This document shows positions 13,035 to 17,900 of a DNA stretch of 64,000 nt, piece by piece. The position numbers and the translations under genes were made by a program. Location of the stretch: contig NZ_APNH01000002.1 of the NCBI RefSeq assembly GCF_040361275.1, positions 558,001 through 622,000 on the forward strand, given 5' to 3'. Below the pieces are notes generated by a model. The model was not told where the DNA came from. It searched no databases and saw only the letters and a program-made list of their open reading frames with translations. The number at the start of each line of letters is the position of its first letter. The first letter of the stretch is position 1. Source of the stretch: Salinisphaera sp. T31B1 (GTDB taxonomy: Bacteria; Pseudomonadota; Gammaproteobacteria; Nevskiales; Salinisphaeraceae).

Positions 13035-13111
13035 GTCCCTGTAGCTCAGCAGGATAGAGCAGCCGCCTCCTAAGCGGCAGGTCGCAGGTTCGACTCCTGC
13101 CAGGGACACCA
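13035..13111 (+). tRNA. tRNA-Arg (anticodon CCU)
   Basis: The 77-base sequence folds as a complete cloverleaf. The 5' acceptor strand GTCCCTG pairs with CAGGGAC at 13101-13107. The anticodon stem GCCGC/GCGGC closes the loop CTCCTAA with anticodon CCT, the T-arm reads GCAGGTTCGACTCCTGC, and A plus CCA is encoded at the end. It reads AGG codons. Its trailer is unusual (see the hairpin and duplication entries). Confidence 0.95.
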
Positions 13112-13149
13112 TTCCCGAGCGCCGGCCGCAGGTCGGTGCTCGGGAATGG
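13109..13149 (+). other. Hairpin formed by tRNA CCA and trailer
   Basis: CCATTCCCGAGC (13109-13120) pairs perfectly with GCTCGGGAATGG (13138-13149). The stem therefore includes the CCA of the mature tRNA. There is no T-run after it, so intrinsic termination is doubtful. The same hairpin recurs 173 bases later (13282-13322). Confidence 0.75.
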
Positions 13150-13161
13150 TCTGGTTGCATC

Positions 13162-13175
13162 GTCGAACCTGCGAC
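13162..13175 (+). other. Reverse complement of the tRNA-Arg T-arm in its trailer
   Basis: GTCGAACCTGCGAC is the exact reverse complement of bases 13081-13094 in the T-arm of the upstream tRNA. In a precursor transcript the two could pair and enclose the CCA hairpin, competing with the cloverleaf. A second exact copy lies at about 13335-13348. Confidence 0.8.
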
Positions 13176-13540
13176 AAACGAACAAGCTTGGTTCGACGGC
13201 CCGCATCGCGGGCCGAACGGTCGCACACGCGACCGGCCCGAAGGGCGAGCCGCCACGCGGCGAGTACTCCTGCCAGGGACACCATTCCCGAGCGCCGGCC
13301 GCAGGTCGGTGCTCGGGAATGGTCTGGGTGAATCGTCGAACCTGCGACAAGCAAACAAGTCCGGTTCGACGGCCCGTATCGCGGGCCGAACGGGCGCACA
13401 CGCGACCGGCCCGAAGGGCGAGCCGCCAGGCGGCGCTCATGCCGACTGGACGAACCAGGGCGCCGCGCCTCGCACGGCCCTGAAGACAGCCCGGCATGGG
13501 CTCGGTTATTCTCGCGGCCTGTGCCCAGCGGCCACTGCCC

Positions 13541-14944: not shown

Positions 14945-17900
14945 ATGTTCTATCTCTACCACCACAACGATCTGTCGCGTCTGGCCGAACTGTTCGGCGC
15001 GCTGCGCCACAACCGCCCGGTACCCCCGCTGGCGCGCGATACCGTGCTGGCGCCGAACGCGGGGATCGGACGCTGGCTGCGTATCCAGCTGGCACACAGC
15101 GATGGCATCGCCGCCAATATCGACGGCCGCCTGCCGGGCGAGTTCATCTGGGCGCTGCTGCACGCCGTGGTGGACAATGCCGACGAGGGCGACCATTTCG
15201 AAGCCGACTGTCTGGTCTGGCATCTCTATGCGTCGCTGCCCGCCATGGCCGTCGAAATCGCAGCCGTGGCGGATTATCTGGGCACGCCGGTCGACGAGAT
15301 CCGCCGCTATCAGCTCGCCCGCCAGCTCGCGGATGTGTTCGACCAGTACCTGATCTATCGCGCCGACATGCTCACGCGCTGGGAACACGGCGAAACACCC
15401 GCGACCCACCCGGGCCGCTGGCAGGCCGAGGTCTGGCGCTGGCTGACCCGCGAGGACCGTCTCGGCCCGCGCCACCGCGCGCGCGTGCTCACCGATTTCA
15501 TCCGCCGGCTGGCGAGCGACACCGCCCTGCAACAACGCCTGGTGCGCCAATGCCCGAACCCGCTCTACTGCTTCGGGCTGGTCGCGCTCGCCCCCGATCA
15601 TCTGCGCCTGCTCTATGCACTGGCCGAACATATCGACGTGTATTTCCTGTTGCCGAACCCGAGCGAGGCCTACTGGGGCGATATCACCGCCGGCCGGCTA
15701 GCGCTCGAGTTGCCGGCCACGGACGACGACGGCGAACCGCTGCCGGGCGAGGCGGCGGTCGAAGCCGGCCACCCCTTGCTTTCGGCGCTCGGGCGCATGG
15801 CCCGCGATACCGTGCGCGTGCTCTATTCGGACGAATTTGTGGGCATGGTCGAACCCGAGCTGGGCGAGCTGATGGCCTACGACGTGCCGGGCGACGACAG
15901 CCTGCTGCATCGTATCCAGACCGATATCGTGCGTCTGGACTGTGCTCAGGCCGAACAGGGCATGGCCGAAAACGACAGCTCTTTCGAGGTCCATGCCTGC
16001 CACAGCCCGCTACGCGAGATACAGGTATTGCAGGATCAGCTGCTCGATCGCCTGGCCGCCGACGACAAACACGTGGCCGCCGGCGACATCGAGCCGTCCG
16101 ATCGCATCGCCCCGCGCGATATCATCGTGATGCTGCCGGATGTGGCCGCCTACGCACCGGCCATCGAGGCCGTGTTCGGCGGCGCCCCGGCCGACCGCTA
16201 CCTGCCGTTCGGGCTTGCCGACCGCGCCCGCTCGGCCGCGCACCCGATCGTGACCTGTGTCTCGGCGCTGCTCGATCTGCCCCTTTGGCGCTGGCAGGCC
16301 AGCACCCTGCTCGACCTGCTGGCGGTGCCCGCGGTCATGCGCCGCTTCGGCGTGTCGGCCAGCGAACTGGATGCGATCACCGACTGGGTGGGCGAGGCCG
16401 GCATTCGCTGGGGCCGCGACGCCGCACACCGCCATGCACTCGGCGCCGGCGCGTTCGCACAGAACAGCTGGCGGTTCGGTCTGGACCGGCTCCTGCTCGG
16501 CGTGGCCCAGTCCGACGACCAGACGCTGACCGCCGGCGTGGCCCCCTGGGCCGATCTGGAAGGCGGCATCACCGCGGCCCTCGGCAAGCTCTGGCGTTTC
16601 GAACAGACCCTGGCAGCGAGTGCCAACGATCTGGCCGAACCCGCCACCCCGGGCGAATGGCAGACCCGGCTCAATGCCCTGCTGGATGCGCTGATCGAAC
16701 CCGCGCCGGACGCGGCCGACGAACAACGCGCCGTCGACAGCCTGTGCAGCGTCTTCGCGCGCTTCGAAACCGCCGAGCGCTGTACCCGCGAGCGCCCACT
16801 CACCGACGACCGGCGTATTTCCTGGCCGGCGGTCCGCGACATGCTGCGCGCCACGCTCGAATCCGCCGCTGAGCGCCAGCCGTTCCTGGCCGGCGGAATC
16901 ACCTTCTGCGGCATGGTGCCGCTGCGGGCCGTGCCGTTTCGCATGGTCTGCGTGCTGGGCATGAACGACGACGCCTTTCCGCGCCAGGACACGGGCCGCG
17001 CCTTCAACGTCATGTTCGACGCGCCGCGCCTGGGCGATCGTAATATCCGCGACGACGACCGGCTGCTGTTTCTGCAGGCGCTCACCGCCGCGCGCGATGC
17101 TTTCTATATCAGCTATCTCGGCCAGGACATGCAGTCCGGCGAAACGCTGCCGCCCTCGCCGATCGTGGGCGAAACGCTGGAATTCGTGCACCGCTATTAT
17201 TTTCGCGACCACACCGCGGCCGCGTTTCGCAAGCGCCTGGTGCACGAACAGCCCATGCAGCCGTTCTCGCCGCGGTATTTCACTGCTGACGCGGCCGACG
17301 CACGGATATTCACCTTCGCCGGCGAGTGGCGCGCGGCCACCGATGCGGCGATCAAGCCGCGCACGCGCCCCGCGCCGCTGCTCGATTCCGCCACCGCGCC
17401 GCTCGTCGAGCCGATCGAAGCGATCGACCTGGACAGCCTGAAACGCTTCTTCGACCACCCGCCACGGGCGTTCTTTCGCGAACGCATCAAGCTCGATCTG
17501 GATATCGACGACCAGCGCCTCGACGACGCCGAGCCGATCGCGCTCGACCCGCTGGCCGCGGCAAGCCTGCGCCAGAACCTGTTCGAGTCTGCCGATGCCC
17601 AGGATCTGGCCACGGTGGATAGCGTGCCCAGCGCCCTGGAACGCGCCCGCGGCACGCTGCCCCCGCCGCCGCTGGCCGACCCCAACTATGCCGACCAGGC
17701 CGAGGCCGTGAACGCCCTGCTGCCCATCTGGCAGGCCTGGAAGGACCAGGGCACGCCCGAAAGCGTGGATATCGATCTGGCCATCGACGGCATCCGGGTG
17801 ACCGGCCGGGTCGCCCAGCGCTGGCCCCACGCCCTGCGGCGGCTGCGTACCGGCAAGCTCAAGACCCGTTTTCGCCTGCGCTACTGGATCGATTATCTGG

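Follow-up and report, generated by a model that had tools for sequence, protein, structure and literature searches.

Behind a tRNA-Arg(CCT) gene of Salinisphaera lies a two-unit trailer array that, as judged by comparison of sequences, is a divergent relative of the RtT RNA and carries an antisense segment that is kept complementary to the T-arm of its own tRNA by compensatory change. We propose, with moderate confidence and on the basis of structure predictions, that the array is an RtT-like trailer element that is co-transcribed with the tRNA and encodes two competing precursor folds, such that a read-through transcript would refold.

The two-unit trailer array of tRNA-Arg(CCT)

The array lies in a 64-kb window of a Salinisphaera genome, that is, the whole stretch of DNA that was analysed, and all of its coordinates are window positions (Table 1). 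A direct repeat (13093-13262 and 13266-13435, spacing 173, 94% identity) begins with the 19 bases of the tRNA 3' end, which bears out the immediate 173-bp repetition, last 19 tRNA bases included, that a preliminary description of the DNA had reported. Behind unit 2, the window contains no further copy of the tRNA 3' end. The exact 14-base complement of the T-arm given in the same description holds as well, with 100% complementarity over 14 nt and a second exact copy in unit 2. The stem that it had placed at 13109-13149 does capture the CCA but is slightly wider than described; it forms a hairpin, H1, with arms of 20 nt and a loop of 3 nt. The U tract of an intrinsic terminator is absent from the window H1, both after and within its 3' arm, unlike in the tRNA-Arg(CCG) array of the source genome, where a U tract is present at H1. 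Next to the array are genes for a CoA-ligase/acetyltransferase-like protein and for a ModE-like regulator, and RecC lies farther off.

Table 1. Features of the tRNA-Arg(CCT) gene and its trailer array, in window positions
Feature	Positions	Strand	Basis
tRNA-Arg(CCT), CCA encoded (13109-13111)	13035-13111	+	ARAGORN; Rfam tRNA, 70.6 bits
T-arm segment GTCGCAGGTTCGAC matched by the antisense (3 nt of the variable loop, 5' T-stem strand, most of the T-loop)	13081-13094	+	inverted repeats; covariation
Whole array, two ~173-bp units, 94% identical	13093-13435	+	direct repeat
H1 of unit 1, near-perfect 20-bp hairpin, tRNA CCA paired with UGG	13108-13150	+	inverted repeat, fold; equivalent hairpin of other sequence in sister arrays
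Anti-T of unit 1, GTCGAACCTGCGAC, exact 14-nt reverse complement of the T-arm	13162-13175	+	inverted repeat; conserved in relatives
T-arm mimic GGTTCGACG of unit 1	13190-13198	+	sequence; nearly invariant in alignment A1
Core hairpin P3	13197-13215	+	fold; compensatory changes in family
Core hairpin P4	13218-13235	+	fold; compensatory changes in family
GGCCCGAAGGGCGAG of unit 1, part closest to the Rfam RtT consensus	13235-13249	+	cmscan alignment to RF00391
Core hairpin P5	13249-13261	+	fold
Copy of the last 19 tRNA bases, end of unit 1 / start of unit 2	13266-13284	+	direct repeat, 0 mismatches
H1 of unit 2, hairpin sequence as in unit 1	13281-13323	+	inverted repeat
Anti-T of unit 2, exact	13335-13348	+	inverted repeat
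T-arm mimic of unit 2	13363-13371	+	sequence
RtT-like GGCCCGAAGGGCGAG of unit 2	13408-13422	+	sequence

At low threshold, cmscan aligns the Rfam RtT model (RF00391) to the core and on into the second tRNA end; the score, 23.2 bits, is below the gathering score of 45 bits. Hallmarks of RtT present in the window are the location directly behind a tRNA gene, units in tandem that take in the tRNA 3' end and, in the cmscan alignment, the conserved core segment together with the junction into the tRNA 3' end. In the source genome, tRNA-Tyr is trailed by an RtT above the cut-off (64.4 bits) and tRNA-Gln by one near it (43.2 bits). A search by DNA similarity for the unit behind other tRNA genes, which the preliminary description had suggested, found sister arrays of three units behind tRNA-Arg(CCG) and of two units behind tRNA-Arg(TCT). 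Because its score stays below threshold while RtT and sister arrays occur in the same genome, we describe the window array as an RtT-like divergent array that by the curated threshold stands outside RF00391. Unit-length matches in its own genome were confined to positions behind tRNA genes (DNA search), which argues against a dispersed repeat of the REP/BIME type. Across the class, RtT matches at E <= 0.001 were found in 51 of 274 sampled genomes, 19 of which were over the cut-off.

Two other tRNA genes of the source genome show irregular duplications. The tRNA-Tyr RtT (minus strand, C1, ~17,050-17,150) is followed by a decayed second unit, in which the core is incomplete and the tRNA-end copy is broken. 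At tRNA-Pro(TGG) (minus strand, C2, near 747,850; L018:1829-1877), a 49-bp stretch of leader and 5' half is duplicated upstream (188-bp spacing, 98% identical), a mirror image, at the 5' end, of the 3'-end arrays.

Antisense conservation and predicted precursor folds

Conservation of the antisense was assessed in a set of 27 Arg arrays, taken from Salinisphaera and from other genera of its order on RtT or DNA similarity and with no regard to the antisense. Arrays behind Arg tRNAs (CCT, CCG, TCT, TCG, ACG) carry an exact 13-16-nt complement of their own T-arm about 47-61 nt after the CCA, and later complete units almost always have an exact anti-T as well. Among Ser arrays, the complement of the own T-arm reaches 15-19 nt in some and is shorter in others; in Tyr and Gln arrays, the exact complement is merely 5-8 nt long. 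All 378 cells of the T-arm/anti-T helix are paired in the alignment of the 27 Arg arrays, and both sides have changed at four positions, namely 5 (C-G to G-C), 6 (A-U to U-A or G-C), 7 (G-C to A-U) and 14 (A-U to C-G or G-C). The covariation score of the helix is 0.177 compared with 0.043 in shuffles (reached by 0 of 500), pairing falls to 21-44% when the partner is slid by 1-3 columns, and RNAalifold picked the helix unprompted. When T-arms were swapped among 57 arrays of many tRNAs, the mean complement dropped from 11.7 to 8.5 nt, and none of 1000 permutations reached the observed value. Array-less tRNA genes of the source genome have a T-arm complementarity of 4-7 nt, once 10. Lack of conservation of the 14-mer in relatives had been named beforehand as a result that would speak against the preliminary description; the complement turned out to be conserved and to covary.

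Between species, the H1 region behind the same tRNA shares 57% identity, compared with 38% between different tRNAs of one species. By this measure arrays mostly track tRNA orthology, implying that the exact antisense was retained while H1 and the core diverged. Core hairpins P3 and P4 show many compensatory changes across the family, and the linker after anti-T has little predicted structure in alignment A1. The array is absent from the CCT locus of four congeners (G001, G002, G005 and G007), three of which (G001, G005 and G007) keep the tRNA-modE neighborhood.

In folding predictions, which leave aside tertiary structure, modification, protein binding and the co-transcriptional order in which the tRNA is made first, no shuffle folded as well as the 146-nt precursor (z -8.5), and the full array gave a z of -12.7. 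All three bases of the CCA are paired within H1 in 17 of the 27 arrays, mostly via unrelated stem sequences, and in other arrays H1 resembles an intrinsic terminator. With a 45-nt trailer, the cloverleaf is predicted to be the minimum, or to miss it by at most 3 kcal/mol, in 14 of 15 arrays, Gln being the exception. With a 70-nt trailer, which includes the antisense, the alternative fold is ahead by 3-21 kcal/mol in 12 of 13 non-Tyr, non-Gln arrays; it is favored in Arg, Met, Val and Glu arrays and in Kluyvera Lys, by 10.3 kcal/mol in the window, and is not favored in E. coli K-12 Lys. Folding the precursor with a short and with a longer trailer, akin to a check put forward in the preliminary description, gave the cloverleaf for the short form and the alternative once the antisense was included, in most arrays tested. 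In 9 of 11 arrays, the window included, the free minimum of the tRNA plus unit 1 combines T-arm:anti-T pairing with pairing between the 5' acceptor strand and the copy of the 3' end. Pairing of the acceptor to the copy is a trivial result of the duplication, so the informative part is its coupling to the antisense. For K-12 tRNA-Lys, the prediction has the antisense paired to the T-mimic beside it and the native T-stem intact, which means that the switch is not universal.

We suggest the following model in conditional form. A transcript that stops, or is cleaved, at the first hairpin would favor the cloverleaf and mature into a normal tRNA. If transcription proceeds past the first hairpin before 3' maturation, the antisense is predicted to capture the 5' half of the T-arm; the acceptor stem could then be closed by the copied 3' end, and the result would be an expanded precursor that lacks the native T-arm. 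Read-through precursors would presumably be kept from becoming active tRNA, and the expanded fold may prepare the way for a distinct trailer RNA to be released, which has been reported for rtT RNA. The two-fold switch, already raised in the preliminary description, gains support from an antisense that is conserved, covaries with its own tRNA and shifts the predicted minimum. Counting against a switch in cis are the short complements of the Tyr and Gln arrays and the presence of exact anti-T in later units, which have no adjacent 5' half of a T-arm; as far as the sequences go, the latter fits a role in trans or homogenization of the array as well as it fits a cis switch. The absence of the array at the syntenic locus in some congeners and the dispensability of E. 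coli units count against the switch, too.

Related arrays in E. coli and other bacteria

RtT-type units were found in 3,345 of 5,426 complete E. coli genomes, at 1-5 per genome, and none were found in the rest. At the lysV locus (L257, L260, L261), between valUXY-lysV and xapR, there are no units in NT1N28 and CFT073, one in K-12 and two in E47, and the strains differ by whole in-register 156-bp units at the same tRNA-Lys gene. This whole-unit variation, at lysV and across genomes, implies that units are easily lost or duplicated and are individually dispensable. Natural strains with zero, one or two units at one tRNA gene also offer a ready comparison. Mobile carriage of the E. coli relative was considered and rejected, since plasmid matches were mostly chromosome-sized records and a 50-kb plasmid with a match, which holds gltX pieces, the tRNA operon and xapR, is a chromosomal fragment.

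Layouts of the same kind are present behind tRNA-Lys in Kluyvera, Enterobacter and Kosakonia isolates (Enterobacteriaceae). Enterobacterial elements with similarity to rtT have been listed among attenuator-like candidates (PMC2965389). More distant loci came from a pattern scan for a T-arm with its antisense; among the matches listed, many tail-to-tail tRNA pairs mimicked the pattern and were flagged and set aside. In a wider survey, the tRNA model alone decided which tRNA loci were taken, irrespective of any antisense. The genomes surveyed were metagenome-assembled genomes (MAGs), each picked since one locus matched the pattern scan, so that arrays at other tRNA genes are independent of the pick and prevalence is not readable from the survey. 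Arrays were found behind Val, Met, Trp, Arg and Leu tRNAs in a Clostridium MAG, behind Asp, Thr and Gly tRNAs in a Tidjanibacter MAG (Bacteroidota) and behind Arg, Lys (two) and Thr tRNAs in a Saccharibacteria MAG. In most of these, the 3'-end copy lies ~140-182 nt downstream and a long antisense, if present, near 42-56 nt. Exceptions are Gly, where the arrangement differs, and the Lys and Thr arrays of Saccharibacteria, which are without a long exact antisense. In an Atopobiaceae genome, no array was found among 30 tRNAs surveyed, and its known Glu array lay outside the loci returned. At Rfam cut-offs, RtT was detected among 16 distant loci at the Kluyvera locus only.

Several units in this collection have features of their own. 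The Kosakonia tRNA-Lys unit (L171, near 1145-1450) measures 229 bp and has two GGCCCGAAGGG motifs, its length being due to internal duplication of part of the core. The Wenzhouxiangella tRNA-Arg(CCT) unit (L196, minus strand, near 900-1100) measures 256 bp and has short internal tandem repeats in the core. Clostridial units (L182, L183) have a common hairpin, AAACAGTCC-NNNN-GGACTGTTT, a possible counterpart of the RtT core.

Tentatively, these arrays could form an unrecognized bacteria-wide class, defined by a copy of the own 3' end, a coevolving T-arm antisense and a switch to an expanded pre-tRNA fold, with the E. coli RtT as one branch, although we hold this to be possible rather than probable. 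The open literature, as opposed to most subscription papers, gave no account of a T-arm antisense nor of RtT-like elements outside the gammaproteobacteria. The data suggest that RtT, known mainly from one E. coli operon, is a branch of a larger T-arm-complementary group. The T-arm/anti-T pair, a concrete and mutable contact, makes it possible to test whether RtT, with its reported link to the stringent response, acts in tRNA maturation or stress signaling.

Alternative explanations and comparison with known systems

Another reading, which we consider unlikely, is that the trailer mainly serves to produce a small RNA that acts in trans. The single-stranded anti-T seed of this RNA would bind T-arms that are unfolded, whether in tRNA precursors or in other RNAs, and the RNA would be a sponge or would tune how the cell responds to uncharged tRNA. 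The kinship of the trailer to rtT RNA, which is reported as freed from tRNA transcripts and tied to the stringent response (PMC4986893), speaks for such a role, as does the detection on Northern blots of RtT RNAs expressed from beside tRNA genes in Actinobacillus pleuropneumoniae (PMC4986893). The exact anti-T of later units and the weakly structured linker behind it agree with this as well, and multi-unit arrays would increase dosage. T-loops are, however, buried in folded tRNA, and tracking of the own tRNA gene by the antisense would be needless for a general T-loop binder. Given that RtT RNA, a relative of the element, is known as a trailer RNA that undergoes processing, a small RNA from the array, as the preliminary description proposed, is in itself plausible. 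Rather unlikely, in our view, is a non-functional tandem duplication in which slippage or recombination between the repeated tRNA 3' ends adds and removes units, while template switching at the T-arm/anti-T inverted repeat mends mismatches and yields covariation without selection. Such quasipalindrome correction is an established mutational process, and the exact in-register steps from zero to two units at lysV between identical flanks, the variable copy number among E. coli genomes and the arrays missing at syntenic loci in congeners all agree with turnover of this kind. The explanation covers the covariation and the changes in copy number; it accounts less easily for the retention of H1 and the core hairpins with changing sequence, as H1 keeps its CCA-pairing form and P3 and P4 show compensatory changes, though the same correction could act on the short inverted repeats of these core hairpins. 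Recurrence of the anti-T position and the unit size in unrelated phyla and vertical retention within the genus likewise argue against it.

The preliminary description had also considered a worn attachment site of an integrated element, and insertion into a tRNA gene does leave behind a repeated tRNA 3' end like the 19-bp one seen here. This origin found no support and seems very improbable: Pfam revealed no integrase among the eight flanking genes, the unit encodes nothing recognizable, and the entire 173-bp unit is duplicated rather than a core site alone. The array has a conserved RNA-like structure, and the architecture recurs with compensatory changes behind many different tRNAs. For the E. 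coli relative, phage records gave no match, and plasmid matches were mostly chromosome-sized records or held the tRNA operon between chromosomal flanks.

Our favored reading, a trailer element with two competing folds, is best placed beside the RtT of E. coli tyrT (RF00391), which likewise lies behind a tRNA in tandem units of ~170-180 bp that include the last 19 tRNA bases. The tyrT trailer repeat unit is 178 bp long. The window array differs in that it follows tRNA-Arg and has a CCA-capturing hairpin and a 14-nt perfect antisense, and the Rfam consensus structure is without any pairing to the tRNA. The Rfam consensus GGGGAAGGAUGAGAACCUUCG is nonetheless near an antisense of the T-arm and acceptor of tRNA-Tyr (18 of 21). 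The E. coli-type tRNA-Lys RtT ('RtT sRNA') shares with the window the antisense at ~50 nt, the T-mimic, the core and the tRNA 3'-end copy, but its first hairpin, which precedes the antisense, is an intrinsic terminator, and in K-12 no switch is predicted, the antisense pairing instead with the adjacent T-mimic. In attenuators and riboswitches with mutually exclusive hairpins, a downstream strand likewise competes for an upstream helix; in the window array, this helix is a tRNA T-arm, and no downstream gene is evidently controlled. Sponges of the 3'ETS-leuZ type, which are 3' external transcribed spacers of tRNAs, bind other small RNAs. As in these sponges, the tRNA trailer of the window possibly becomes a stable RNA, whereas its complementarity is to its own tRNA.
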